Of a stretch of 36,298 nt of DNA, positions 8,561-36,260 are shown piece after piece. The notes below the pieces were generated by a model. That model was not told the DNA's origin. It made no database searches and saw nothing but the letters and a program-made list of their open reading frames with translations. Each line of letters starts with the position of its first letter. Within the stretch, counting starts at the first letter, position 1. A program made the position numbers and the translations under genes. This DNA is from Tissierellia bacterium (GTDB taxonomy: Bacteria; Bacillota; Clostridia; Tissierellales; Sedimentibacteraceae), in the NCBI GenBank assembly GCA_012519555.1, contig JAAYPY010000098.1:1-36298 (forward strand), given 5' to 3'.

Positions 8561-8736
8561 ACCCTCCTCACGCCTTTATATATTATTATATTTAGCATGT
8601 ACCCAGGATATGATAATTATTTAAATATTATTTATATGATGCAGTCTTATATGAGCTGCTTTATTTTCAATAACTGTAACGCTTTTTCCTTCTAAAGCTT
8701 CTGTAACTTTTCATCTATTGATTTGAAAACATTTAT
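8561..8736. other. Intergenic region between oppF and the gerM-like gene
   Basis: No gene. It holds the promoter region of the gerM-like gene and the end of the importer operon. An imperfect hairpin GCAG...CTGC lies at 8642-8660, but no T-rich intrinsic terminator follows oppF, so the importer transcript could run on into the gerM-like gene. Confidence 0.35.
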
Positions 8737-9711
8737 TTAGTTTTTATCCAACAAAAAACATGAAACAAAATGGTCTGAAGAAACCTCTAAAAGGTCTGGA
8801 TCTTCATGTGTACACCTTTCAAAACAATAATCACAACGTTTAGCAAATCTGCATCCGGGTTTTACGTTAATAGGACTGCTTACTTCTCCCTTAATAAGTG
8901 TAAATTCTTCGTCCCTCTTAGAAATATCCGGCTCAGGAATTGCTTTTAGAAGAGCCTTTGTATACGGATGTAAGGGATTGTTGAACAACTCGTCAGATGG
9001 TGCCATTTCAACACACTTCCCAAGGTACATAACCATTATTTTAGTAGAAATGTGCTTTACCACACTAAGGTTATGAGTTACAAACATATATGTAAGCCCC
9101 AGCTCCTCCTCCAAATCCATTAAAAGATTTAAAATTTGAGCCTGAATGGAAACGTCCAATGCTGAAACCGGCTCATCACATACGATAAATTTAGGGTTTA
9201 GTGATAATGCTCTTGCTATTCCTATACGTTGACGTCGTCCTCCATCCAACTCATGAGCATAAGAATTTGCATAACGTCTTGCTAACCCTACCAAATCCAT
9301 AAGCTCTGCTGCACGGTTATAGGTATCAATTCTATTTTTATATACTTTATGAATAAACATATACTCTGCTATTACATCTATAACAGACTTACGTGGATCA
9401 ATGCTTGAATATGGGTCCTGAAAAATTATCTGAATATCCTTTCTCAGCTCCCGTAATTTTCTTGCTTTAATTTTTGTTATTTCCTTGCCATTATAATATA
9501 TTTGACCTGATGTAGGCTCAATCAGTCTTAAAATAGTTCTTCCCAAGGTGCTTTTGCCGCACCCGGATTCTCCCACCACTCCCACTGTTTCTCCGGGATA
9601 TATTTTTAGATTGATGCCGTCTACCGCATGAAGTCTAGCACCGCCATTTAATTTAAACAATTTTTTTAATTCAACAGTTTCTATTAGCGGAGTTACTTTA
9701 TTATTTTCCAT
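8737..9711 (-). CDS. Oligo/dipeptide ABC transporter ATPase, OppF/DppF type
   Basis: Cytoplasmic ATPase of 324 residues, the second of two that power peptide import. It has Walker [15 protein letters not shown], a Q-loop [13 protein letters not shown], signature-like [14 protein letters not shown], Walker [13 protein letters not shown] and the H-loop [10 protein letters not shown]. The signature motif reads LDGGRRQR rather than LSGGQRQR: Ser to Asp and Gln to Arg, a change in a residue pair that contacts ATP. The C-terminal oligopeptide domain with four cysteines ([14 protein letters not shown]) is present, as in the OppD/F families. The ATG at 9711 is chosen because GGAGG sits 5 nt upstream; this start overlaps the end of the preceding ATPase gene by 11 nt, suggesting translational coupling. 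Last gene of the operon. Confidence 0.92.
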
Positions 9712-10705
9712 TTTTACCTCCTGCTTTCCCACATAATTTGTCAGTAAACAAATGACAGAGCAAAGAGTGAGTTCCTTCAGTTATAGTATTTGGATGAACC
9801 TTAGTACATATATCCATGCAATACTTGCATCTGGGAGCAAACACACATCCTTCGGGAAGATTTGTCGGGTCAGGCATCAAGCCCGGTATAGAATTTAGTC
9901 GTTTTGTCCTGGAAGCAAGGTTTGGTATAGAGCCAAACAATCCTTCGGTATATGGGTGATGATTCTCTCCAAGAAATATATCATAAACTGTACCTGCTTC
10001 AACAATTTCTCCTGCATACATAACAGCAACGTCATCACATGTTTTTGCTACGACTCCCAGGTCATGCGTAATCATTAACATTGATGTTCCCAGACGATTT
10101 CTTAGTTCTTTAATCATCATCAGCACCTGTGCTTGTATTGTAACATCCAATGCGGTAGTTGGTTCATCTGCAATAAGAAGCTTTGGTTCGCAGGCAAGAG
10201 CCATGGCAATTACTACTCTTTGTTTCATACCCCCTGAAAACTGATGAGGATAATCTATTTTCCTTGATGGGAGTATTCCAACCATAGTGAGTTTTTCATC
10301 AACTCTTTTTTCTATTTCCTCTTTACTAATTCCTTCATTATGCATAATAATGGCCTCGGCAATTTGGTCACCTACAGTCATAACAGGATTTAGACTTGTC
10401 ATAGGATCCTGAAAAACCATGGCAATTTGACCGCCTCGTATTTGACGCATATTATGCTCGTCCATATCAAGGAGATCGTCACCTTCAAATTTAATACTTC
10501 CGCTTGTTACCTTCCCGGTATTTTCCGGAAGAAGTCTCAATATTGACAAAGCAGTTGTTGTTTTGCCCGCTCCTGTTTCTCCTACCAAACCTAATGTTTT
10601 ACCCTTACCAATTTTAAGGCTGATGCCGTTTACCGCCTTGACAATTTCCAGGTCTGTTTTATAAATAACCGACAAATTATCTATGTCCAAAATCAACTCG
10701 TTCAT
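9701..10705 (-). CDS. Oligo/dipeptide ABC transporter ATPase, OppD/DppD type
   Basis: Cytoplasmic ATPase of 334 residues pairing with the downstream OppF-type subunit. Motifs: Walker [16 protein letters not shown]-loop [13 protein letters not shown], signature [15 protein letters not shown], Walker [13 protein letters not shown] and H-loop [10 protein letters not shown]. The C-terminal oligopeptide domain carries [14 protein letters not shown]. The ATG at 10705 is preceded by GGAAAGGA at 10 nt; a TTG two codons upstream at 10711, only 4 nt from the same ribosome binding site, is an alternative. About 30 nt separates it from the permease gene upstream. Confidence 0.93.
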
Positions 10706-10733
10706 AATCAAACAATCCTTTCCAATTCAGTAA

Positions 10734-11633
10734 TTAAGATTTCAAATGGGGGTCCAGGGCATCTCTTAGGCCGTCACCTATAAGATTTACGGAACATGCA
10801 GTCAAAACAATTGCCATAGCCGGGAAAAACAGCAAGTGAGGAGAGGTACGCATAAACTCTCTTGCTTCGGAAAGCATCAGTCCCCATTCCGGTGCCGGCG
10901 GCGGCATCCCTAAGCCTAAAAAACTTAAGGTTGACTCATACAGTATAATCTTAGAAACATTAAGTGTAGTATTAACAATAATAACTCCCATTGCGTTAGG
11001 CAAAATATGAGATGCTATAATTCGCGCGCTGCTTGAGCCACCTGCCCTTGCAGCTTCCACATAATCAAGTTCCGCAAGATTTAGAACCTGTGAACGAACC
11101 AGCCTCACATAATTTGTAAAATATGCCAAAGTAAGAGCCACCAACAAATTTGTGAAGTTGGCACCAAGTGCAAATACTACAGCCATTGTAAACAGTATAT
11201 CAGGAACAGACATAAAAATATCTAATGATCTCATAATAATACTGTCTATTTTCCCTCCAAAGTAACCTGCAATTGCTCCTAAGGCACTGCCTACTATACA
11301 AGATGAAATAGTGGCTAAAATGGCTATCGATATGGAAGTTCTTCCTCCATGGACTATGCGCGCAAACACATCGCGCCCATAAGAGTCAGTTCCAAACAGG
11401 TGCGTCATTGAAGGACCTTGAAGCTTATTGGCAAGATCCTGCTTTGTAGCAATCGAATAAGGCACGATAACATCTGCAAATAACAGAATTAACAGTATAA
11501 TTGAAAGCATGACCAATCCTATGACAGCACCTTTGCTTTTCTTAAATCTTCGCCATATTTCCTTTGACTGACTTTGTTTTTTAAATGATATTTCGCTATG
11601 TTTCATAGCATTGTTCATTGTTGTATCCTTCAT
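10734..11633 (-). CDS. Oligo/dipeptide ABC transporter permease, OppC/DppC type
   Basis: Integral membrane permease of 299 residues. An N-terminal cytoplasmic stretch ending in RRFKKSKGAVIGLVML leads into the first membrane segment (OppC_N domain), followed by GTDSYGRDVFARIVHGGRTS and then the BPD_transp_1 domain, with the ATPase-contacting EAA loop (EAARAGGSSSARIIASHILPNA). About six membrane segments are visible. It begins 4 nt after the OppB-type gene ends, so the two are tightly coupled. AAGGGA precedes the ATG at 11633; a second ATG five codons in also has an AAGGAT upstream. Confidence 0.93.
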   Translation of the reverse strand: MKDTTMNNAMKHSEISFKKQSQSKEIWRRFKKSKGAVIGLVMLSIILLILLFADVIVPYSIATKQDLANKLQGPSMTHLFGTDSYGRDVFARIVHGGRTSISIAILATISSCIVGSALGAIAGYFGGKIDSIIMRSLDIFMSVPDILFTMAVVFALGANFTNLLVALTLAYFTNYVRLVRSQVLNLAELDYVEAARAGGSSSARIIASHILPNAMGVIIVNTTLNVSKIILYESTLSFLGLGMPPPAPEWGLMLSEAREFMRTSPHLLFFPAMAIVLTACSVNLIGDGLRDALDPHLKS

Positions 11634-11637
11634 AACA

Positions 11638-12579
11638 TTATCCCTTCATTTTGGCATACTTAGCCTTTATTCTCGGATCAATATATGCATATATAACGTC
11701 AACTAACAGCATAACGATTGTAAAACATATAGCAATCAATATTGTCCCTGCAATAATAACAGGCTCGTCCTTGTAGGTTATTCTATCAACAATCAAGCTG
11801 CCTATGCCCGGAATCGAAAACAACTTTTCGGCAACAACAGCTCCTGCTATAAGCATTCCAAGATTTAGGCCTATATTTGTTATAATGGGCAGCATTGCAT
11901 TTTTTAATGCGTGCTTCCATATTACTATATTTTCAGGTGCTCCTTTTGCACGTGCAGTACGTACGAAATCCTGTCTTATTGATTCCAGCATTGAAGATTT
12001 TGTAAACCTCAGGTTCATTGCAGCCGGCGGTATGGAAATGGTGAGCGCAGGCATTATATAACAACTAAAGGAGCTTATTCCGTAGGATGGAAGTAAATTC
12101 AGCTTTAGTGAAAATATAAACAGCAAGATCATTCCTAATACGAATGAAGGTACGGCTGCAATTAAAAATGCAAAAATAGAGGGAACCGTATCCCATAAGG
12201 AATATTGTTTTACCGCAGCGTATATTCCTAATGGTATTCCTATAATCGAAGATAAAACAACACCCATTAAGGCCAATTTTATTGTTACAACATACCTTGG
12301 CCATATTTCTGCAAAAACAGATTGCTTGGTAAAATAAGATATGCCGAAATCCTGTTTTACTATCATATTGTAAATATAATTAATATACTTTTGTATAAAT
12401 GGAAGATCATAACCCAATTCATGATTAAGCTTGTCAATGTCAGCTTGAGGAGCTGAAGAACCAAGCATTGCACGGGCAGGATCTCCGGGAGTTATATTCA
12501 TTACAAAATAAATAATTAAAACAACCCCTAATACTGTGGGTATAAGAAATAAAATCCTTTTAATGATATATCTATACAT
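11638..12579 (-). CDS. Oligo/dipeptide ABC transporter permease, OppB/DppB type
   Basis: Integral membrane permease of 313 residues. It opens with the classic MYRYIIKRILFLIPTVLGV and a PGDPARAMLG periplasmic motif, and has the EAA loop TARAKGAPENIVIWKHALKNA. Six membrane segments are visible. The start is set at the ATG at 12579, where GGAGA lies about 6 nt upstream and family similarity begins; the frame is open for 14 more codons upstream but without a ribosome binding site. A long 16-bp hairpin lies between this gene and the binding-protein gene before it. Confidence 0.93.
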   Translation of the reverse strand: MYRYIIKRILFLIPTVLGVVLIIYFVMNITPGDPARAMLGSSAPQADIDKLNHELGYDLPFIQKYINYIYNMIVKQDFGISYFTKQSVFAEIWPRYVVTIKLALMGVVLSSIIGIPLGIYAAVKQYSLWDTVPSIFAFLIAAVPSFVLGMILLFIFSLKLNLLPSYGISSFSCYIMPALTISIPPAAMNLRFTKSSMLESIRQDFVRTARAKGAPENIVIWKHALKNAMLPIITNIGLNLGMLIAGAVVAEKLFSIPGIGSLIVDRITYKDEPVIIAGTILIAICFTIVMLLVDVIYAYIDPRIKAKYAKMKG

Positions 12580-12603
12580 TCTTTTCTCCTTACTTTCTTT
12601 TCT

Positions 12604-12645
12604 ATTTATGGCATCTCCCAAACATTATAGGGAGATGCCATAAAT
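12604..12645. other. Intercistronic 16-bp hairpin between the peptide-binding-protein gene and oppB
   Basis: Arms ATTTATGGCATCTCCC (12604-12619) and its exact complement (12630-12645) flank a 10-nt loop. It is followed on the minus strand by ATAGAAAAG, not a T run, so it is not a standard intrinsic terminator. Its position just after the first gene of the operon suits a 3'-end stabiliser that keeps binding-protein mRNA more abundant than permease mRNA, as known for other ABC importer operons. The role is inferred. Confidence 0.7.
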
Positions 12646-12679
12646 TAGACAAATAACTTATATGCAAATTACATTTAAA

Positions 12680-14248
12680 TTATTTCCAGCTGAATGTACG
12701 AATTTTATAAAATGATGGAACAGGAGTTCCGATTTCCAAATCCGAAGCCCATACAGTAGGAACAGGCTTAGATAAGCAAGGAAGCAGGGTTGCAGAATCC
12801 ATAACAATTGACCACAACTCTGTGTAATATCCAACACGTTCCTCAATATCAGATGTGGAAACACCAAGATCCACAAGCTCTTCAAGACGTTTCCAGTTAA
12901 AGGGACCGTCCTTGTACTTAACAATATACATACCTACCGATTCGCTATGTACCATCTGTCTTATGTTATTAAAATCAAAGTTATTGGAATCGGCATATAT
13001 ACAAATATCATAATCCTGGTCATATAATCTTGGCAATACCACTGCAGAGTCCATTACAGATACTTCAGCCGTAATTCCTACATCCGCAAGATTTGCCTGA
13101 AGCACTTGTGCCATTTTAGCCTTATCTCCGGTGTTTGCTCCGTAAGTAAGAATGGTTCCCACATCTACTCCATCAGGATATCCAGCTTCTGCTAATAGTT
13201 GTTTTGCCTTATCTTTATTATACTCATATGTTTCAAATCCGTCTTTAGGTGAAGTAGCAACATATTCAGGAGGCATATAGTAAGGGGTTTCTACACCGTA
13301 ACCGTTACATGCTGCAGAGTTCATATCCTTTTTGTTTACAGCATAGAATATTGCCTGACGTACTTTGTCATTAGCAAGAATGTTATTGTTAGTAGGAGAT
13401 AAATAATTTACACCCAAGAACAATACGTCATTGCCTTTTGTTAAGGAGTTATTATCACCTGAAGCACTTAATAGGGCTTCCCAGTCTGTTAAAGGAGCAT
13501 CTTCTAAATAATCAAGCTCATTGTTTTCAAATGCTATAATTGCAGCTGCATCATCAGAAATAACCCTGTACTCAACTTTTTTAACAGCCGGAGCACCTCT
13601 CCAATAGTCCTCGAATGCACTAAGCTTTATGTTTGTTGCCACATTGTATTCTGTTACATAGTATGGGCCTGTACCAGCTTTGTGGGGTATTGTACCAAAC
13701 TTGTCCCCTTGCTCCAAAACTTCTTTCTCGCTAACTATCTTTATACTGAAAAAAGTATGATCAATTGCAGAAAAAGGTGTTTTTAAGGTTACTTTTACAG
13801 TACTGTCGTCTATTTCAGCCACATCTTCAATCATGGATGTAACATAATTAAATCTTGGATTTTTCATTGCTCTTTTGTAACTGAATACAACATCCGATGC
13901 CTTCAAGTCTTCTCCGTTTTGGAATTTAACTCCATCCTGTAGAGTAATTGTATATTCCAATTGGTCATCACTTAAGCTTACATCTTTAGCCAGCTCTTTA
14001 TAATAACCACCTTTTGCCTCATCCATTCCGTAGAGGCCTTCAAACATCTGATGCCACACCTTGACTGCACGTAAACTTGTAGACTGTTCCCAATCAAGTG
14101 ATGGTACAGAGTCTGATACCCTGAGTTTAAGTGTTCTTTCCTCGGGAGTTTGATTGTTCTCCTGTGTTACAGGTTTTCCTGAACATCCCGAAATTAATCC
14201 TGCAACCATTAAAACTACTAAAACGATTGCTACTAATCTTTTACTCAT
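12680..14248 (-). CDS. Peptide ABC transporter substrate-binding lipoprotein (family 5)
   Basis: A 522-residue extracytoplasmic lipoprotein of the SBP_bac_5 family (OppA/DppA type). The signal peptide ends in lipobox LISGC (Cys22). Family features include the opening SVPSLDWEQSTSLRAVKVWHQMFEGLYG, YTITLQDGVKFQNGEDLKASDVVFSYKR, and the C-terminal DYDICIYADSNN. GGAGG precedes the ATG at about 9 nt. It is the first gene of a five-gene operon encoding a complete importer, behind a sigma-54 promoter at 14338-14354. The ligand is not evident; the adjoining RocR-type regulator and guanidino enzymes suggest arginine- or guanidino-containing peptides, which is inference. Confidence 0.93.
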   Translation of the reverse strand: MSKRLVAIVLVVLMVAGLISGCSGKPVTQENNQTPEERTLKLRVSDSVPSLDWEQSTSLRAVKVWHQMFEGLYGMDEAKGGYYKELAKDVSLSDDQLEYTITLQDGVKFQNGEDLKASDVVFSYKRAMKNPRFNYVTSMIEDVAEIDDSTVKVTLKTPFSAIDHTFFSIKIVSEKEVLEQGDKFGTIPHKAGTGPYYVTEYNVATNIKLSAFEDYWRGAPAVKKVEYRVISDDAAAIIAFENNELDYLEDAPLTDWEALLSASGDNNSLTKGNDVLFLGVNYLSPTNNNILANDKVRQAIFYAVNKKDMNSAACNGYGVETPYYMPPEYVATSPKDGFETYEYNKDKAKQLLAEAGYPDGVDVGTILTYGANTGDKAKMAQVLQANLADVGITAEVSVMDSAVVLPRLYDQDYDICIYADSNNFDFNNIRQMVHSESVGMYIVKYKDGPFNWKRLEELVDLGVSTSDIEERVGYYTELWSIVMDSATLLPCLSKPVPTVWASDLEIGTPVPSFYKIRTFSWK

Positions 14249-14337
14249 TATATATTTCCTCCAATATTTTAGTTTTAAATTTTTTGTTACCTTAACTTTC
14301 CTCCTTCTGTAATAAAAATGTTAGCAATATAATCTTA

Positions 14338-14354
14338 TGCAATTTCCGTACCAA
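14338..14354 (-). promoter_or_regulatory. Sigma-54 promoter of the peptide importer operon
   Basis: The minus strand reads TTGGTACGGAAATTGCA: GG and GC with exactly 10 bases between them, differing from the consensus TTGGCAC only by T for C in the -24 box. The start of transcription should lie near 14326, leaving a leader of about 78 nt. The RocR-like activator gene is divergent, 240 bp away. Confidence 0.82.
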
Positions 14355-14507
14355 AAAAAGTGGCAGAAATTTTAAAACTATATAAATAGATATTTATATT
14401 AATTCTGACATAAACAAATCAGAAAAAATATACAATGTCTTTTAACTGCTTTACACATGTTGAAAAAAAGCACCTTTTAATTCTATCATTTTTTTTCATC
14501 TTCTGTC

Positions 14508-14526
14508 ACTGTAAAATTTATACAGT
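14508..14526. promoter_or_regulatory. Candidate operator or enhancer dyad upstream of the RocR-like gene
   Basis: ACTGTAAAATTTATACAGT is a near-palindrome: ACTGTA/TACAGT arms with 7 bp between and further matching in the centre. It lies 14 bp before the -35 of the regulator gene and about 155 bp behind the sigma-54 promoter of the importer, distances suited to autoregulation and to an enhancer site. I found no clear second copy before the guanidino-enzyme operon, so it is only a candidate. Confidence 0.35.
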
Positions 14527-14540
14527 TGATATGCCTTTCC

Positions 14541-14569
14541 TTGACAAACCAACGTTTTTCCTATATTAT
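14541..14569 (+). promoter_or_regulatory. Sigma-A promoter of the RocR-like regulator gene
   Basis: TTGACA (14541-14546), a 17-base spacer and TATTAT (14564-14569): a near-consensus vegetative promoter with a leader of about 20 nt. Confidence 0.8.
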
Positions 14570-14596
14570 TAACCTTAGCACAATTAGGAGAAAACA

Positions 14597-15973
14597 ATGT
14601 TGAGAAGATATGTAGAACAAATTTTAAGTATATATAATTATATAGACGGTATTTTGGTTACCAATAACAAAGGAATAGTAGAGTATTACACAAACTATAG
14701 GCCGGACATAAACAATTTAAAGGAAAAGGATGTAGTTGGAAAACACGTATTAACCGTATATCCTACACTAAATGAAAAAACAAGCAGTGTTATGAGGGCA
14801 CTAAAAACCGGTAAGTCCATATTTAACGAATTTCAATCTTTAGTTTCATATAAAGGACAAACAATAAATGCAATTAATTCAACACTTTTAATAAAGCATA
14901 ACGAAGACATCATAGGCGTTGTGGATGTTTCCAGATATGTGGATGACTGTTACCAACGTCAGGATATAGTTCTGTCAATTAAAAGCAATGAGCAAAAAAA
15001 GTCCTTATATACTGTTGATGATATTATTACTGATTCGATTAAATTAAACAATATTAAAGAAAAAATCAAAAAAGTTGCACAAACAGACTCTACGGTATTA
15101 ATTTATGGAGAAACAGGAACAGGAAAGGAATTGGTGGCACAGTCCATACACACGAGCAGCAACCGTAAAAGTAAACGCTTTGTATCACAAAACTGCGCTT
15201 CCATACCATCAACACTGTTGGAAAGTATCCTGTTTGGAACAGTAAAAGGAAGCTATACCGGAGCGGAAAACAGACCCGGATTGTTTGAATTAGCCAATGG
15301 CGGAACCCTGTTTTTAGATGAAATAAACTCAATGGAAATAAATGTCCAAGCCAAAATACTTAAGGCAATCGAAGAAAAGAAAATTACCAGAATAGGCGGA
15401 ATTGAACCTATTGATACAGATGTAAAAATAATCTCTGCAATAAACGAGGAGCCTTCAGTATGTTTAAAAGAAAAAAAGCTTAGAGAAGACTTATTTTACA
15501 GGCTTAGCGTTGTTCAGTTAGATTTGCCTCCCTTAAGAGAAAGAAGGCAGGACGTAAATTACCTAACAAAGTATTTTATTGACTATTTTAACAGCAAGAT
15601 GAACAGAAATATAATTGATATATCCGAAGATGTAGAAGATATTTTTCAAAAATACTCCTGGCCTGGGAATGTCAGAGAACTAAAAAATATAATAGAAGGT
15701 GCCTTTAACTTAACTTCATCTCGTATTATTCAAAAAAAGGATTTGCCTGAATATATTTATAGAATTCCGGTAAATAACTCAAATTTTGAGATAAATGAAG
15801 ACATTTCACTCAGTGAAGCAGTTAAAAATTATGAAAAAAAATTAATAATTAATGCAATAAAAAGCACGGAAAAACTTACCGATGCTGCAAAAAAACTTAA
15901 AATAACAAAACAAAATCTCCACTATAAAATGGAAAAATACGAAATAGATAAGAATAATATTTATTTTCAGTAA
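14597..15973 (+). CDS. Sigma-54-dependent transcriptional activator, RocR-like
   Basis: An enhancer-binding protein of 458 residues, close in length and layout to Bacillus RocR (arginine/ornithine-responsive). A PAS-type sensor occupies about residues 8-118. The AAA+ domain follows: Walker A GETGTGKE (171-178), Walker B GGTLFLDE (235-242), arginine fingers in PPLRERRQDV. The sigma-54 contact loop reads GSYTGA (218-223) instead of GAFTGA. A Fis-type helix-turn-helix ends the protein (about 415-450, LTDAAKKLKITKQNLHYKM). The stretch ILFGT-KG-TGA-RPGLFE is shared with RocR as I recall it. AGGAG precedes the ATG. It sits between two outward-facing sigma-54 promoters and probably activates both; the effector may be arginine, ornithine or citrulline, which is inferred. 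Confidence 0.9.
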   Translation: MLRRYVEQILSIYNYIDGILVTNNKGIVEYYTNYRPDINNLKEKDVVGKHVLTVYPTLNEKTSSVMRALKTGKSIFNEFQSLVSYKGQTINAINSTLLIKHNEDIIGVVDVSRYVDDCYQRQDIVLSIKSNEQKKSLYTVDDIITDSIKLNNIKEKIKKVAQTDSTVLIYGETGTGKELVAQSIHTSSNRKSKRFVSQNCASIPSTLLESILFGTVKGSYTGAENRPGLFELANGGTLFLDEINSMEINVQAKILKAIEEKKITRIGGIEPIDTDVKIISAINEEPSVCLKEKKLREDLFYRLSVVQLDLPPLRERRQDVNYLTKYFIDYFNSKMNRNIIDISEDVEDIFQKYSWPGNVRELKNIIEGAFNLTSSRIIQKKDLPEYIYRIPVNNSNFEINEDISLSEAVKNYEKKLIINAIKSTEKLTDAAKKLKITKQNLHYKMEKYEIDKNNIYFQ

Positions 15974-15986
15974 AATATTACTTTAC

Positions 15987-16019
15987 AAATTAGTAAAATT
16001 ATTTTTACTAATTTTTTTT
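15987..16019 (+). terminator. Intrinsic terminator of the RocR-like gene
   Basis: AAATTAGTAAAA pairs perfectly with TTTTACTAATTT around the tetraloop TTAT, followed by a run of T. It insulates the regulator gene from the downstream sigma-54 operon. The remaining sequence to 16196 is AT-rich with no gene; ATGTATTTACAT near 16070 is a small palindrome of unknown meaning. Confidence 0.75.
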
Positions 16020-16196
16020 ATCTCTTTTGCAGCCTTAATTTTTTTTAAATCAAATTTATAAACATCACATGTATTTACATTTTTTTATTATTAATTAGGT
16101 ATTCTGATATTTTGCTTTTAATCTAAATCTCCTTGGTAATTGTAACCTTTATTGCTAACAGTTCCAAAATTAGTTCCTTGCTTGTCGCTATATATG

Positions 16197-16212
16197 TGGC
16201 ACAAGAATTGCA
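16197..16212 (+). promoter_or_regulatory. Sigma-54 promoter of the tandem guanidino-enzyme operon
   Basis: TGGCACAAGAATTGCA matches TGGCAC-N5-TTGCA exactly, with GG and GC 10 bases apart. Transcription should begin near 16224, about 35 nt before the ATG at 16258. Confidence 0.85.
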
Positions 16213-16257
16213 AGAAATGAAGTCAAGCATAAAAAGATAGTATAAGGAGCTGAAATA

Positions 16258-17214
16258 ATGAATAAAGAAACGGTAAAAATAGATATCGACGCTATTGCCG
16301 GAGAGCGCTGGTTCCCAAAAGAATCAAATTTTGAGGATGATATGGAGCTTTATTGGGGAGAATGGGGTGTGTGTTCTGAAGTAGATGACCTTAAATCAGT
16401 GCTGATGTACAGACCGGGAAAAGAAGTAGAAAGTTTTAACGCAAATGAAGTTAGATTTTCAGATGAGCCTATCGATGTTGAATTAATGAGAAAGCAACAC
16501 GATAACCTTGCACAAATATATAAGGACCACGGTGTTAAAGTATATTATGTGGAAGAGCAGAGAGAAGACAGACCCAATGCTGTTTTCTGCAGAGATTTAA
16601 TGTTTATGACACCTGAAGGAGCAATTGTTACAAGACCTGGTATGTCTGCCAGAAGAGGAGAGGAAAGATATATCGCGCAAGCTTTAGCTAAGCTTGGTGT
16701 TCCGATATTAAGAACAATTAACGGAGACGGCATATTTGAAGGTGCCAACGCCATGTGGGTTAACAGAAAAACCGTCGTTTTATCCACCAGCAGCAGAACA
16801 AATAGAAGTGGTTATGAACAAGTAAAATACGAGCTTGAAAAAATGGGAGTAGAAAATATTATACCTATGCAAATCCCTTACAGCAATATACATATAGACG
16901 GTATTATGAATATGGCAAGTGAAGAAATAGTTTTTATTCATGCATCACAAATACCTTATGATGTATGCGATGCTCTTAAAAAATGCGGCTGCAAAATATT
17001 AGAGGCTCCCTCTACAACGGAAGTGCGAAATACATTTGGCTGCAACTTTGTAGCATTGAAGCCGGGTTTGATTGTTATGCCGGAAGGAAATCCAAGATGC
17101 CAGGAGCTTTTGGAAAACAACGGCATTAAGGTTATAACTGTCGACGTGTCTGAAATAATGAAAGGTAAGGGAGCAATACACTGTGTTACTGCTTTCTTAA
17201 AAAGAGGACAGTAA
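16258..17214 (+). CDS. Amidinotransferase/DDAH-family guanidino enzyme, copy 1
   Basis: A 318-residue cytoplasmic enzyme of the guanidino-group modifying superfamily (PF02274: arginine deiminase, dimethylarginine hydrolase, amidinotransferases). Likely active-site elements: Asp113 in FCRDLMFMTPEGA (guanidinium binding), Glu161 in IFEGAN, His212 in IHIDG, and the nucleophile Cys309 in GAIHCVTAF near the C terminus. An ARRGEER motif (131-137) is also present. It is shorter than true arginine deiminase (about 410) and lacks its long helical insert. The start ATG is preceded by AAGGAG. It is first in a two-gene operon with a close paralogue, behind a sigma-54 promoter and beside a RocR-like activator, so arginine or a modified arginine is a reasonable but unproven substrate. 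Confidence 0.85.
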   Translation: MNKETVKIDIDAIAGERWFPKESNFEDDMELYWGEWGVCSEVDDLKSVLMYRPGKEVESFNANEVRFSDEPIDVELMRKQHDNLAQIYKDHGVKVYYVEEQREDRPNAVFCRDLMFMTPEGAIVTRPGMSARRGEERYIAQALAKLGVPILRTINGDGIFEGANAMWVNRKTVVLSTSSRTNRSGYEQVKYELEKMGVENIIPMQIPYSNIHIDGIMNMASEEIVFIHASQIPYDVCDALKKCGCKILEAPSTTEVRNTFGCNFVALKPGLIVMPEGNPRCQELLENNGIKVITVDVSEIMKGKGAIHCVTAFLKRGQ

Positions 17215-17242
17215 AAGAGATTTTATGAAAAGGAGCCGTAAT

Positions 17243-18193
17243 ATGAATACAAACGCAACAAAAATAGATATAGATGCTATACCGGGTGAACGCTGGTTCC
17301 CGGCAGAAACAAACTTTACAGACGAGATAAATCTTTACTGGGGAGATTGGGGAGTAGCCTCCGAAGTTGACGATTTAAAAGCTGTTCTTATGAGAAGACC
17401 CGGTAAAGAAATAGAAAACTTTGACTATAAGGAAGTAAGATTCAAAGGTCCTATCGACGTTGACTTATTTAGAAAACAACATGATAATTTAGCCAAAATT
17501 TATACAGATCACGGAGTTAAAGTTTATTACGTCAAAGAGCAAAGAGAAGACCGTCCAAATGCTTTGTTTATGAGAGACCTGGTTTTTATGACCCCTGAAG
17601 GAGCCATAGTAACAAGGCCGGCTATAGCTGCCCGAAGAGGCGAAGAAAGATTTGCTGCCAAAGCACTTTCTGATTTGGGTGTGCCTATTCTTAAAACCAT
17701 AACAGGAAACGGAACCTTTGATGGAGCTATGGGATTGTGGATTGACAGAAAAACTGTTGTATTAGCGTCAGGAGTAAGATGCAACAAAGACGGATATCAG
17801 CAAGTTGAAGGTGAATTAAAAAGAATTGGCGTGGAAAATATTATACATATGCAAATTCCATACGGTCATGCACATATTGACGGATTATTGAACATTGCAA
17901 GCAACGACACAGCAATGATACATGCCTCTCAGGTTTCTTATGATGTTTGTGATGCTTTAAAAAGAAAAGGCTTTAAGCTTTTGGAAGCACCATCTCAAAC
18001 TGAGGCAAAAGAAACCCTTGGAATCAATTTTGTAGCAATTAAACCGGGACTGGTTGTTCAACCTGAAGGAAATCCAAGATGCAAAGAGTTATTGGAGAAA
18101 AACGGTATTAAGGTTATTTCCATTGATTTTTCAGAAATACTAAAAGGCTGGGGCGCTATTCACTGTGTTACTGCTTTTTTAAAACGGGGTTAA
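17243..18193 (+). CDS. Amidinotransferase/DDAH-family guanidino enzyme, copy 2
   Basis: A 316-residue paralogue of the preceding protein, clearly from tandem duplication: most blocks align without gaps apart from a single residue near 68. The catalytic elements Asp112 (FMRDLVFMTPEGA), His211 (AHIDG) and Cys308 (GAIHCVTAF) are kept, but the acidic residue is Asp160 (TFDGAM), where copy 1 has Glu. Both kinds occur in the superfamily: mammalian DDAH uses Asp, bacterial enzymes often Glu. This points to altered chemistry or substrate rather than loss of function. The start is placed at the ATG at 17243 because AAAAGGAG lies 8 nt upstream and the copies align from there. It begins 28 nt after copy 1 and is surely co-transcribed. 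Confidence 0.85.
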   Translation: MNTNATKIDIDAIPGERWFPAETNFTDEINLYWGDWGVASEVDDLKAVLMRRPGKEIENFDYKEVRFKGPIDVDLFRKQHDNLAKIYTDHGVKVYYVKEQREDRPNALFMRDLVFMTPEGAIVTRPAIAARRGEERFAAKALSDLGVPILKTITGNGTFDGAMGLWIDRKTVVLASGVRCNKDGYQQVEGELKRIGVENIIHMQIPYGHAHIDGLLNIASNDTAMIHASQVSYDVCDALKRKGFKLLEAPSQTEAKETLGINFVAIKPGLVVQPEGNPRCKELLEKNGIKVISIDFSEILKGWGAIHCVTAFLKRG

Positions 18194-18231
18194 TATTATT
18201 AGCAAATCAATTTCTGTGAAATTTTACTTAG

Positions 18232-18255
18232 CAGCATCCTGAAATCAGGATGCTG
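18232..18255. terminator. Hairpin between convergent guanidino-enzyme and pgeF genes
   Basis: CAGCATCCTG and CAGGATGCTG form a perfect 10-bp stem with an AAAT loop. The T run after it is weak (TCATATTACTTTTG), so termination may be inefficient or aided by Rho. The position between two converging genes supports a terminator. Confidence 0.65.
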
Positions 18256-18260
18256 TCATA

Positions 18261-19067
18261 TTACTTTTGTTTCATCATTATAATACCTGACATTAATCCT
18301 CTTTTTCCTTTTTGTCCTCTGTGAGAAAAGAATAAATCATTGCGGCATTTAGTACATAAGCCTGCAATTTCAATATTTTTTTCGTTCATTCCCTCTTTAA
18401 TCATATTGAATTTATTAATTTCCCACAAATCAAAATGATACTTCTCTCCCATTGTGACCATAAATTCCTTATATTTAATATCCGTAGAGATAAACAACTC
18501 TGCAACATCCTTATCTACTTCAAAGCAGCACCGGCCTAAGGATGGGCTGATTGCGGCCTTAATATCAGAAGGATTGCTTCCAAGTTCTGTCAATGCCTTT
18601 ACCATTTTCCCCGTTATATTAGACATGGTCCCTCTCCATCCAGCATGGCTCAGCCCGATTAATTTTTTCACTGGGTCATAAAAAAACACTGCATTACAGT
18701 CTGCATGAAATGACATCAAAGCAAGATTTTTCTTGTCTGTATAAATACCGTCTATATCCGTATACTTAGGATCCTTCATGGCCCTGCCCTTATGATTTTC
18801 GTCCACATACATGATATTATTGGTATGGGTTTGGGCTGTTTCAACAATATCCTCTATATTAATACCTAACCTTTCAAACACTATCAGATTGTTTTTTCTG
18901 ACATTTTCTTCGTCATCTCCTGTACCAAAGCCTATGTTTAAGGATTCATAAGCACCTTTGCTGACACCGCCCTTTCTTGTAGTGAAGCAGTGCACAAGGT
19001 CATCATATTCATCCAAAATGGGAAATGTTAAATATATAAAATTTTCTATTTCATTTAATTTATACAT
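18261..19067 (-). CDS. pgeF: Peptidoglycan editing factor PgeF / YfiH family (multicopper polyphenol oxidase domain)
   Basis: A 268-residue cytoplasmic protein of the Cu-oxidase_4/YfiH (DUF152) family. The metal-binding and catalytic motifs are present: SFHADCNAVFFYDP and LSHAGWRGT, together with SLGRCCFEV, plus the opening CFTTRKGGVS. Members have been shown to act on purine nucleosides (phosphorylase or deaminase activity) and, in E. coli, to prevent misincorporation of serine-containing peptidoglycan precursors. The start is the ATG at 19067, preceded by AGAGGAA; longer starts lack a ribosome binding site. It is a single gene divergent from the MocR gene; nothing nearby links it to a pathway. 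Confidence 0.9.
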   Translation of the reverse strand: MYKLNEIENFIYLTFPILDEYDDLVHCFTTRKGGVSKGAYESLNIGFGTGDDEENVRKNNLIVFERLGINIEDIVETAQTHTNNIMYVDENHKGRAMKDPKYTDIDGIYTDKKNLALMSFHADCNAVFFYDPVKKLIGLSHAGWRGTMSNITGKMVKALTELGSNPSDIKAAISPSLGRCCFEVDKDVAELFISTDIKYKEFMVTMGEKYHFDLWEINKFNMIKEGMNEKNIEIAGLCTKCRNDLFFSHRGQKGKRGLMSGIIMMKQK

Positions 19068-19257
19068 AATAATTCCTCTCTTAATAAGTTCATTATGGAA
19101 TTTATATCTATCGAGAAAAATGTAATACATTTCATTTATTATACCATAGCTATATAAAATTTTTATATGATTTTATAAAAATATATGTTAAAATAATTGT
19201 GTACCTTTGCACCTAATTAAAACAACAAAAAACAACCAAGACAGTCAAGGAGGTCAT

Positions 19258-31116: not shown

Positions 31117-33333
31117 TCAAGATATCATTATTCTATGACTATAAACATTGGTAATCTCTAAAAATTCATCATGCTTCTTATATTGAATCCAATAGGTTAT
31201 TATCCCTATCTGCAAATGACCGGTATATATTTTTGTTTCTTTATTATATATAGTTTTATTACTCTCTTGGCAATGCTCTGCAACCTGGTATACATCTTCC
31301 TCGGATATATGAAGTCTGTCCATTTTATCATATACTTCTTCAGAAATTTTCAATTTAACCATATATTTTTTTTCCATAATTTCAAAATTTTCTCCCCATA
31401 TGTTTTTCAGCATTTTCTTTTTAAGTTTAAGCCTGTTTTTTCTCAGTTCAGATATATGAAAGGGCTTTTTTAACGGCTCTAAGCCGAATACTCCATCCAA
31501 TATGTGCCTGGTGTTTTTACCTGCTGACAAGAACAGATTTCTGCAGTTGGTACAATATGAGATATAAGGCAGATCCGAGCTGTTTACGGAAGCATTCAGC
31601 ATCTTACGAAATACCTCCGGATTTGAGGGATAAATATGACCTCCCATTCCGCAGCACCTTGCTTCCTTTTTACTGTCCCTGATTTCAATTAGCTCTGCAC
31701 CTAGCTTTCTAGACAGGTCACGTACCGCATCCTGCATTTGAGGAAAGTTCCTGCTTGAACAGGGGTCAAACACCACCCATTCACCGGCAAAATAATCTGA
31801 ATTATCCGGCATTCCATTATTATTGATATATTCATAAAGAGATATTACTTCAAGTTCAGGAAGATACTCAGCAAATGTCTTGGTGCATGTTGAGCAGGCA
31901 GTTACAATTTTGGGCTTTCCAAAATTCAACCACTCCTTTTTAATCTGCATAAGTACCTCATTAAGCAACTTGTGATTTCCCGCCCATAAAGCAGGTACAC
32001 CGCAGCAGCCTAAAAGCAAGGCCGTGTCAGGGTTCTTACTAAGGATGTAACTATAAGCCTTTTCCACATGTTCTGTTCCCGATGCAGTCATCTGGCATCC
32101 GGGGAAGAACATATATGAAGCCTTGTCAAAACCCGGGGCAGCTTTTGCAAGATAAGCATCAGTTAAAGCAAGTACCATGTCTCTTATATAAAAATCATGA
32201 AGGGCTGGAGGAAAATGTCCGCTTTCATAAAGGTATTTCTTGCTTTCGATTAAAATATCTTCAACATTAATATTTTTAGGACACACTGAGCCGCAGAGAC
32301 CACATACGCTGCAAGAAACAATCATTCTTGTGCCTACTCTTTCAAAGAGGCCTTCATCTGCTGACCTTGCCATTTGAGAGTCGCTTTCAACCTTTCTTGG
32401 GAGCAAATCCATATGCTGCAAAAATTCACATCTGTCCTTGCATTTAGTGCAGTCACACAGAACACAGCGAAGGGCTTCTTCAACTGCTTCTTCTTTTGAA
32501 AAATACTCTCCGTTGGAAGGAATCACGGATTCAGATGTTGGTGCTTCCTCTTTTATGGGAATTTTGCATTCAGTATTCAAATATGTTTCAGGCTGACCAC
32601 TCATGCTCCCGACTTGAATATATTTTTCTATGGAAGCTGCTGCAATCATTCCATGCATAAGTGCCGCCATATGAGAGCATCCGGAAATTCTGCCCCCTAA
32701 AAAAACACCAGCTTTTTCCGTTGCAAGGCTTTCACTGTCCCATGAGCTCAATAAACCGAAATCATTGCCGCCTTCACCGGTTGCAATATATACTGCATCA
32801 TAATTTAGTTTGTCCAAATCCAATATTTCTTCATTAATTAATACATAATTTATATATTCAAACTGAAGGGTAAATTCATCATCCAATATTTTTTGGTCTA
32901 TGATATCCTTCAGACTTCCGCCTAATTCACTGTCCTTTTCATATAGGGTTACCTGATATTTTCTTGTAGCAAGTCTATGTGCACATGCCATACCGGAAAG
33001 ACCTCCGCCGATTATGGCTATTTTTTCTTGTCGCTCAGGCAAATTATAATTAATGGGTGATTTTCTTGTTGCATATCTGACAGCAGCTTTTTCAAGTTCA
33101 ATGACCGATATTTTTTCAGGACAAATACCAATGCAGTCTTGAGGGCATATTAATGAAACTATGCCCGGAAAAATAACATTTTGGGCATAGTCTTTATAGG
33201 CAGAATTGAAATTGCCTTTTTGAATTTTTTTTATAAAATTCCTTGTTTTAAAATTAATGGGACATGCAGAAGTACAGGGCGGATTGCTGCCCTGTACACA
33301 TTCGTAAGTATATGAATAACTGTTATCAATCAT
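31117..33333 (-). CDS. Multidomain FAD/iron-sulfur electron-transfer protein (GltD-like plus HdrD/GlpC-like)
   Basis: A 738-residue cytoplasmic fusion. Residues about 10-75: two [4Fe-4S] sites of the Fer4_20 type (CTSACPINF; CPQDCIGICP). About 103-250: an NAD(P)/FAD module with AIIGGGLSGMACAH. About 290-360: further cysteine clusters (CVLCDCTKCKDRC; CSVCGLCGSVCPKN). About 405-605: two CCG domains as in heterodisulfide reductase D/GlpC (GCCG; CSTC; DPCSS; RCCGMGGH; CTNC). The last 85 residues form a separate alpha/beta domain (YWIQY...SHRIMI) that I cannot name. It lies 23 nt after the aldehyde oxidoreductase gene; GAGGT precedes its ATG. It most likely takes electrons from that enzyme and passes them to NAD(P)+, ferredoxin or a disulfide/quinone-like acceptor, which is inference. 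Confidence 0.82.
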   Translation of the reverse strand: MIDNSYSYTYECVQGSNPPCTSACPINFKTRNFIKKIQKGNFNSAYKDYAQNVIFPGIVSLICPQDCIGICPEKISVIELEKAAVRYATRKSPINYNLPERQEKIAIIGGGLSGMACAHRLATRKYQVTLYEKDSELGGSLKDIIDQKILDDEFTLQFEYINYVLINEEILDLDKLNYDAVYIATGEGGNDFGLLSSWDSESLATEKAGVFLGGRISGCSHMAALMHGMIAAASIEKYIQVGSMSGQPETYLNTECKIPIKEEAPTSESVIPSNGEYFSKEEAVEEALRCVLCDCTKCKDRCEFLQHMDLLPRKVESDSQMARSADEGLFERVGTRMIVSCSVCGLCGSVCPKNINVEDILIESKKYLYESGHFPPALHDFYIRDMVLALTDAYLAKAAPGFDKASYMFFPGCQMTASGTEHVEKAYSYILSKNPDTALLLGCCGVPALWAGNHKLLNEVLMQIKKEWLNFGKPKIVTACSTCTKTFAEYLPELEVISLYEYINNNGMPDNSDYFAGEWVVFDPCSSRNFPQMQDAVRDLSRKLGAELIEIRDSKKEARCCGMGGHIYPSNPEVFRKMLNASVNSSDLPYISYCTNCRNLFLSAGKNTRHILDGVFGLEPLKKPFHISELRKNRLKLKKKMLKNIWGENFEIMEKKYMVKLKISEEVYDKMDRLHISEEDVYQVAEHCQESNKTIYNKETKIYTGHLQIGIITYWIQYKKHDEFLEITNVYSHRIMIS

Positions 33334-33356
33334 ACACTGACCTCACATAAATAATA

Positions 33357-36209: not shown

Positions 36210-36244
36210 AGTATTCCTCCATAAATATTTATATATTAATAACA

Positions 36245-36260
36245 TGCAAGTATTATGCCA
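36245..36260 (-). promoter_or_regulatory. Sigma-54 promoter of the aldehyde oxidoreductase operon
   Basis: The minus strand reads TGGCATAATACTTGCA: GG and GC are exactly 10 bases apart, with TGGCA and TTGCA boxes and a single departure (T for C at the last -24 base). Transcription should begin near 36234, about 25 nt before the ATG at 36209. The activator is not in the window and may lie beyond the right edge. Confidence 0.75.

Follow-up and report, generated by a model that had tools for sequence, protein, structure and literature searches.

AguA is a guanidino-modifying deiminase. The agmatine regulon of Clostridium joins a sigma-54 enhancer-binding protein (EBP), AguQ, with operons aguDA, aguBC and aguQT (PMC6615313, Table 1), and the ornithine regulon of OrdR in the same study includes nhaC. 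Here we describe a locus with a sigma-54 EBP and other parts, found in a 36,298-nt contig of a Tissierellia bacterium (JAAYPY010000098.1), the whole of which we call the window. It holds a five-gene Opp/Dpp importer operon on the minus strand and, on the plus strand, an EBP gene and two compact enzymes of family PF02274, A and B (Table 1). Together these probably form a cassette, controlled by sigma-54, for the catabolism of an arginine-like guanidino compound. The sigma-54 EBP is common to the AguQ regulon and the cassette, but the AguQ row names no Opp operon. The OrdR regulon shares sigma-54 control and an NhaC-type carrier with 21 of the 69 loci counted below, but it serves an ornithine pathway and its row has no guanidino enzyme. 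We found no PF02274 pair with Opp in any of the table's 39 rows, and Sedimentibacter, Emergencia, Anaerovorax and Acidaminobacter go unmentioned in the main text of the study.

The window is one contig of a 248-contig, 2.43-Mb assembly (88% complete, 4% contaminated). The gene order of Opp operon (-), EBP (+) and two enzymes (+) is identical in Sedimentibacter hydroxybenzoicus DSM 7310 (locus L024) and is therefore no assembly artefact.

Sigma-54-like promoters and the activator

A first-pass annotation had read two outward sigma-54 promoters here, and they hold up well: both sequences are as it gave them, both match the consensus closely, and both are kept in L024. Each scores 23.5 on a weighted consensus of our own setting whose maximum is 25.5. 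All 17 bases of the Opp site are unchanged in L024, within an intergenic stretch that has otherwise diverged; at the enzyme site the TGGCAC and ATTGCA boxes are identical. The rpoN gene was found in the assembly. In a survey of 60 sources for sites scoring at least 21 within 250 nt of a gene, such a site preceded 28 of 78 enzyme genes, versus 13 of 664 genes outside the named clusters. Among named neighbours, sites stood before 5/5 amino-acid permease, 2/8 OppA, 2/14 NhaC, 1/37 EBP and 0/9 M28 peptidase genes. The window's EBP gene has a sigma-70-like promoter, one of the two best among 47 in the scan (shuffles give 35.5, sd 5.5), and the sequence around it is largely kept in L024.

A third strong sigma-54-like site lies at 874-890 on the minus strand (TTGGCACAATAATTGCT, 24 of 25.5), 43 nt before the gene at 3-830, an Ldh_2-family dehydrogenase running off the contig end. 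No activator gene was noticed adjoining it within the window.

The EBP has the features of a sigma-54 activator: an AAA+ domain (208.7 bits), HTH_8, the Walker A motif GETGTGK, and GSYTGA, a variant of the GAFTGA loop. Variants such as GSFTGA and GAYTGA still permit activation (PMC6615313). In its first ~140 residues no PAS or other Pfam domain was found at E<=0.001, and its best NCBIfam model is PrdR, at 350.7 bits against a cut-off of 795. The protein had been called RocR-type; the sigma-54 EBP architecture behind that name stands, but with no PAS domain found by Pfam and PrdR as the best model, the label refers to that architecture.

To count partners across relatives we used 69 of 77 sources, each with a called enzyme of at least 250 aa (L051, L061, L062, L077, L078, L082, L124 and L132 were excluded), and scored genes within 6 genes of an enzyme by protein clusters. 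These counts leave out 37 short loci (L084-L120); of 20 further fetched stretches, three that overlap known loci (L128, L129, L138) were dropped. Louvain clustering split the enzyme family, and a second clustering was used instead. The gene caller was crude, laying reverse-strand open reading frames (ORFs) over likely genes in L078 and L057, and the loci cannot be treated as independent, since L047 and L064 have identical enzymes and L033 and L064 share one contig. EBPs were counted with an HMM built from 14 EBPs of the window's assembly.

By this measure 42 of the 69 loci have an EBP within 3 genes of an enzyme, 46 within 4 and 47 within 6, compared with a background of 1 in 223 genes located more than 6 genes from an enzyme. 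A stricter EBP motif missed many, finding 28/69 loci at any distance and 26 within 3 genes, with a background of 0/223. Conserved synteny of importer, activator and enzymes had been set as a check on the first-pass annotation, and it is conserved, with EBP, Opp and enzyme together within 6 genes in 12/69 loci.

EBP lengths vary. Some are ~460 aa as in the window; others are 600-625 aa (L121-L123, L125) or 678-717 aa (L072, L073, L075, L133-L136, L139). Because length and N-terminus differ, sigma-54 control has either joined the enzyme family more than once or had its sensor swapped. Paired adjacent EBP genes were noted near the enzyme pair in L036, L038, L043, L046 and L049; in L043, L046 and L049 one EBP of the pair has an altered loop (GGFTNA, GGYTDA) and, by that motif, may be unable to contact sigma-54 alone.

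Two compact enzyme types

Both enzymes, at 318-322 aa, pass the PF02274 cut-off of 22.8 bits. Matches to curated models were far lower than their cut-offs: arginine deiminase (ADI, TIGR01078), A 89.9 and B 70.4 of 489.1 bits; dimethylarginine dimethylaminohydrolase (DDAH), A/B 98.5/85.0 of 340 for NF045660 and 77.4/53.1 of 450 for NF045658; arginine dihydrolase, A 37.3 and B 27.1 of 450. CtlX matched A only (23.7 bits). Five related enzymes likewise fall below the curated family cut-offs.

Alignment with ADI and DDAH structures shows that enzyme A keeps Asn107, Arg112, Asp113, Arg132, Glu161, Arg180, His212, Asp214 and Cys309. In ADI the contacts made by these residues include those to the free alpha-amino and carboxyl groups. 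Among 14 aligned members all of them are invariant except Glu161. The Cys-His-Asp-Glu site with its H-x-D motif is thus complete in A (D113, E161, H212, D214, C309), and H-x-D is kept, as in ADI, in 79 enzyme rows where covered, the one exception being the partial L082 row. The active site reads as arginine-like, and the guanidino-type active sites proposed earlier are borne out by ADI residue equivalents in A, and in B with Asp for Glu. The enzymes had also been described as short; they are compact, but shortness is not incompleteness, since A has a counterpart of each catalytic residue of ADI (Cys, His, Asp and Glu), with Glu changed to Asp in B. A predicted model of A (pLDDT 85) gave Foldseek matches to NnhA, ADI and DDAH, with TM scores (by query) of 0.70-0.81.

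A tree of 97 of the 98 enzyme rows has an A clade of 39 rows (support 100/95) and a B clade of 25 rows (100/99). The two types are told apart by 20 positions, including 128, 164, 176, 181, 209-211 and 310 beside catalytic motifs. The A enzyme of the window agrees with type A at 17 of the 20; the window's second enzyme agrees with type B at 13, with type A at 6 (including 181), and with neither at 310. A B-clade gene is present in 25 loci, and 22 of these carry an A-clade gene as well; by clade, 17 loci have A but lack B, the window included. An enzyme pair lies within 6 genes in 27/69 loci. This co-travel, with the differences beside the catalytic His and Glu, suggests two substrates or two steps.

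A candidate enhancer dyad

When the sequences upstream of 40 sigma-54-like sites (up to 220 nt each) were searched for dyads in common, GTAAA-N6-TTTAC appeared in nine regions; the best count in 20 shuffles of that search was 3. The 77 sources span 1,245,597 nt and contain 23 exact copies; the regions within 350 nt upstream of enzyme genes make up 33,490 nt of this and account for 19 of the copies. Among 99 control dyads with the same letters and gaps of 4-8, GTAAA with gap 7 and AGTAA with gap 8 reached 7, and the rest no more than 2; those two are spacing and register variants of the dyad itself. For copies with 0-1 mismatch and a measured distance, 21 of 24 lie 47-112 nt upstream of the -24 box, and neighbouring dyads are often about 22 nt apart. 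The distance to the -24 box is 70 nt in L024 and longer in the window (Table 1). In L031 the gene ahead of dyad and enzyme is no EBP, therefore the dyad is more than an EBP terminator. The window's single match is unremarkable alone: 0.14 are expected, and 13 of 100 shuffles hold one.

Layout and conservation of the module

Table 1. Features of the module in the window: position, strand (. where none applies) and supporting details
Feature	Position	Strand	Details
OppF/DppF-type ATPase	8737-9732	-	ABC_tran, oligo_HPY; 88.8% aa identity to S. hydroxybenzoicus, dN/dS 0.076
OppD/DppD-type ATPase	9701-10711	-	ABC_tran, oligo_HPY
OppC-type permease	10734-11633	-	BPD_transp_1, OppC_N
OppB-type permease	11638-12621	-	BPD_transp_1, BPD_transp_1_N
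OppA-type solute-binding protein	12680-14248	-	SBP_bac_5; nearest NCBIfam model GsiB, below cut-off
Sigma-54-like promoter, Opp operon	14338-14354	-	TTGGTACGGAAATTGCA, 23.5/25.5; 17/17 bases kept in L024
Sigma-70-like promoter, EBP gene	14541-14569	+	TTGACA-17-TATTAT, 11/12 match
Sigma-54 EBP	14597-15973	+	Sigma54_activat, AAA_lid_14, HTH_8; Walker A GETGTGK, GSYTGA loop, Fis-type HTH
Degenerate second dyad, 2 mismatches	15971-15986	.	22 nt from exact dyad; 38 such sites in window, weak alone
Candidate enhancer dyad GTAAA-N6-TTTAC	15993-16008	.	GTAAAATTATTTTTAC; 187 nt upstream of -24 box
Sigma-54-like promoter, enzyme operon	16197-16212	+	TGGCACAAGAATTGCA, 23.5/25.5; both boxes kept in L024
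Enzyme A, compact, ADI-like, predicted guanidino-modifying	16258-17214	+	PF02274 87.3 bits; FEGAN, IHIDG, AIHCV
Enzyme B-like paralogue	17225-18193	+	PF02274 72 bits; FDGAM (Glu to Asp), AHIDG, AIHCV
Terminator-like stem, 11 pairs	18231-18256	+	3' of enzyme operon; longest of 7 stems, shuffles expect 6.1

All five Opp/Dpp genes, the EBP, both PF02274 enzymes and both -24/-12 sites were present where the first-pass annotation had placed them. The importer set is complete, with a binding protein, two permeases and two ATPases whose Pfam domains are over cut-off. The eight module proteins share 88-95% identity with those of S. hydroxybenzoicus, with dN/dS of 0.02-0.08. The next two genes to the right share 64% and 74%; their silent-site estimate is undefined and was taken as saturated. 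Nucleotide identity to L024 is 83% over 8736-16019 and 78% over 16191-19068, falling to 73% and 72% further right, with 77% in a short stretch on the left. That the module proteins are closer between the two Sedimentibacter species than the right-hand neighbours hints at lateral exchange; the module was either exchanged between the species or is held by stronger constraint.

At 31117-36245 the window carries a molybdopterin-dependent aldehyde oxidoreductase (NF045668) and, adjacent to it, a protein of the pyridine nucleotide-disulfide oxidoreductase/dicluster-binding type (NF045663, 'diclust_near_Sec'), both over cut-off.

Partners and distribution in relatives

The importer is an exchangeable part of the cassette. 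Near the enzyme, Opp was found in 14/69 loci, an NhaC-type carrier in 21/69 and an amino-acid permease in 4/69; L048 has an amino-acid ABC importer (SBP_bac_3), and L140 has proteins related to it. Opp was counted as permease plus binding-protein clusters, which leaves L069 outside although an oligopeptide-type binding protein and ATPases were recognised there by eye. Other partners were M28 peptidase (11/69), Amidohydro_3 (10), a polysaccharide-deacetylase fold (7), class I aminotransferase (7), alanine-dehydrogenase family (4), DegT (3) and ArgH (1). An ArgH-cluster gene adjoins the enzyme match in L078, and lies 3 genes off in L136 and 7 off in L073 and L075. The L075 aminotransferase is over the PRK07324 cut-off, the next models being GntC and VioD; L069 has a decarboxylase of ornithine/arginine/DAP type and L063 an Asp/Glu/hydantoin racemase family protein. 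For the deacetylase-fold partner, a PuuE-allantoinase model was among the weak matches. In L123, L124 and L126 a ~1170-aa protein directly follows the Opp genes; for its L124 copy, Pfam and NCBIfam gave no match at the thresholds applied.

Distribution is patchy. Enzyme matches occur in 4 of 27 genomes of the window's family (E<=1e-40), in 2 of 391 drawn from its class (E<=1e-60), one being the window's own, and in 27 of 247 in the family of genome G123, which includes those matching Emergencia loci, with up to seven matches per genome. The hosts are anaerobes, including Sedimentibacter, Emergencia, Anaerovorax and Acidaminobacter records.

The enzymes had been thought to replace arginase or the classical arginine deiminase. 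This did not survive: the window's assembly also encodes a classical ADI (539 bits, above the model's cut-off) accompanied by ornithine carbamoyltransferase (OTC), an arginase-family protein, and a DDAH-like protein (374 bits, cut-off 450) that reads HLK. Among 47 genomes of a related family, with kinship uncorrected, a full-length ADI (E below 1e-140) was found in 20 of 27 with the enzymes versus 6 of 20 without, the latter drawn from 220 genomes with no match. ADI co-occurs with the enzymes, which therefore add to it. A compact run in the same assembly (L142:79-3501) has the DDAH-like gene, an ORF that by eye resembles a transporter, and a gene for an Ala_racemase_N protein; it is a possible methylarginine operon.

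Mechanism, substrate and alternatives

We favour a sigma-54-controlled cassette for an arginine-like guanidino compound because of EBP proximity, the sigma-54-like sites, dyad enrichment, the ADI residues, the fold and the A/B pairing, and because of amino-acid and amide partners (NhaC, M28, Amidohydro_3, deacetylase fold, alanine-dehydrogenase family, aminotransferases). These partners together suggest an arginine-like amino acid, or a derivative requiring amide hydrolysis in some species. To the genes, promoter-like sites, conservation, dyad enrichment, active-site residues and two enzyme types that we computed, the mechanism adds what we infer: the chemistry, the inducer, EBP binding to the dyad, shared Opp control and a division of labour between A and B. 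The EBP would be made from its sigma-70-like promoter, and its N-terminal domain would sense the guanidino compound or a product. It would bind tandem GTAAA-N6-TTTAC dyads and open the -24/-12 promoter in front of the two enzyme genes, while the Opp operon, from its own -24/-12 promoter and perhaps under joint control from the dyad 1.6 kb away, would import the compound. Enzyme A, with a Cys-His-Asp/Glu site of the ADI type, would hydrolyse the guanidino group of an amino-acid-like substrate, and enzyme B, whose residues next to the catalytic His and Glu differ from those of A, would act on a second related substrate or take the next step.

Several results weigh against this interpretation. 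An EBP within 6 genes is missing from 22/69 loci; 14 of these show fewer than 6 genes on one side, and the other eight (L039, L050, L052, L067, L069, L074, L126, L140) are not cut so. By clusters, 20/69 loci have none of EBP, Opp and NhaC. Neither enzyme reaches the curated ADI, DDAH, arginine-dihydrolase or CtlX cut-off, and our literature searches found no biochemical study of any member of the enzyme family. In enzyme B of the window and L024, Asp replaces E161, with Cys, His and Asp retained; in the tree, the window's second enzyme is not a member of the B clade and groups with Halobacteroidaceae (91/91, not starred). Beside the Opp promoter there is no dyad with fewer than two mismatches; a two-mismatch site at 14382-14397 is one of 38 such in the window. 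Genome-wide, exact dyads occupy 3 places in the window's assembly, the copy in the window among them, 10 in S. hydroxybenzoicus and 4 in G123; the reversed control occupies 8, 16 and 5. The dyad is not in excess and therefore has no predictive value alone. Fifteen of the 17 genome-wide places were examined as loci, and a sigma-54-like site of at least 23 within 210 nt was found only at three enzyme loci and L155. At L155 (S. hydroxybenzoicus, genome G003), away from the module, the dyad is 201 nt from the sigma-54-like site, on its downstream side (L155:1300 and 1501).

The substrate is where explanations diverge. The version first proposed, in which Opp imports a small peptide containing arginine or methylarginine and the side chain is then modified, fits the peptide importers (14/69, with a related binding protein in 8 sources) and the M28 peptidases (11/69). 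We consider it unlikely, since the NhaC-type carrier is commoner (21/69) and, with the amino-acid permease (4) and the amino-acid ABC importers of L048 and L140, fits a free guanidino amino acid better, and since the enzymes keep the ADI residues that bind free alpha-amino and carboxyl groups. Methylated guanidines are further disfavoured by H-x-D in place of HLK, which would mark an unsubstituted guanidine. A Sedimentibacter strain is said to degrade cyanophycin; a cyanophycin-dipeptide substrate was considered and left. Free arginine itself is a possible though doubtful substrate, for an extra ADI/dihydrolase in which A would convert arginine to citrulline and B citrulline to ornithine, under control unlike that of arc-type ADI. 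The arginine-type residues and the weak dihydrolase and CtlX matches point that way, as does NhaC, a predicted arginine/ornithine carrier under sigma-54 (PMC6615313). But ADI and OTC are already in the assembly, full-length ADI co-occurs with the enzymes, and the hydrolase partners would be left unexplained.

Those hydrolases prompt a modified arginine (a glycation-type adduct, opine-like, or a cyclic ureide) that an amidohydrolase or deacetylase-fold partner would open, A and B releasing citrulline and an amine such as alanine. Amidohydro_3, the deacetylase fold and the alanine-dehydrogenase family speak for it, with the L063 racemase family and the ArgH-cluster genes at L078, L136, L073 and L075. 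It is nonetheless improbable: those partners are absent from the window and each is in a minority of loci, the tested alanine-dehydrogenase proteins fall below the model cut-off, and H-x-D suggests an unsubstituted guanidine. Among the literature matches listed there was no bacterial pathway for glycation products. More improbable still is that the window's enzyme B is inactive or a partner subunit of A; the Glu to Asp change in the window and L024 would suit this, but its dN/dS against S. hydroxybenzoicus (0.037) is not above that of A (0.047), Cys, His and Asp are kept, and B-type rows from other genera retain Glu. At the bolder end, A and B could make up a so far undescribed pathway of two enzymes, serving a guanidino nutrient distinct from free arginine, for instance an adduct of arginine or one of its acylated or cyclic derivatives. 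This pathway would have a sigma-54 activator and an enhancer code to itself, and importers and ring- or amide-opening hydrolases would be swapped into it between species; we give this little credence for now. For the arginine-like guanidino compound that we prefer, enhancer and promoters are predicted to the base, so a reporter screen for inducers could reveal the substrate quickly.

Comparison with known systems

The RocR-type label likens the EBP, by its architecture, to RocR of Bacillus subtilis. RocR is a SigL-dependent activator of the catabolism of arginine metabolites; its targets are rocABC, rocDEF and rocG, and the passages on it mention no ADI-like pair or Opp (PMC4348106). The enzymes share the arginine-type active site of ArcA (TIGR01078) and, by the predicted model of A, its fold, but ArcA has ~406 aa and they lack a stretch of ~80 residues between the first two aligned blocks. 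DDAH also has a similar fold, the TM scores of the predicted A model to Pseudomonas aeruginosa structures being 0.86-0.89, but it reads HLK where the enzymes have H-x-D. The 2-nitroimidazole nitrohydrolase NnhA gave the top two Foldseek matches to that model (TM by query 0.81), but with 18-19% identity, and it is named after its nitroimidazole substrate.

Our literature searches returned no description of this enzyme, EBP and importer cassette among the matches listed. The cassette points to a separate branch of guanidino-modifying enzymes outside the curated families, and offers a testable sigma-54 regulon of activator, enhancer, promoters and enzymes in anaerobes. It is akin to the AguQ and OrdR regulons predicted for amino-acid catabolism in Clostridiales (PMC6615313); its new elements are the branch of enzymes, the pairing of A with B, the enhancer motif and the swapping of importers.

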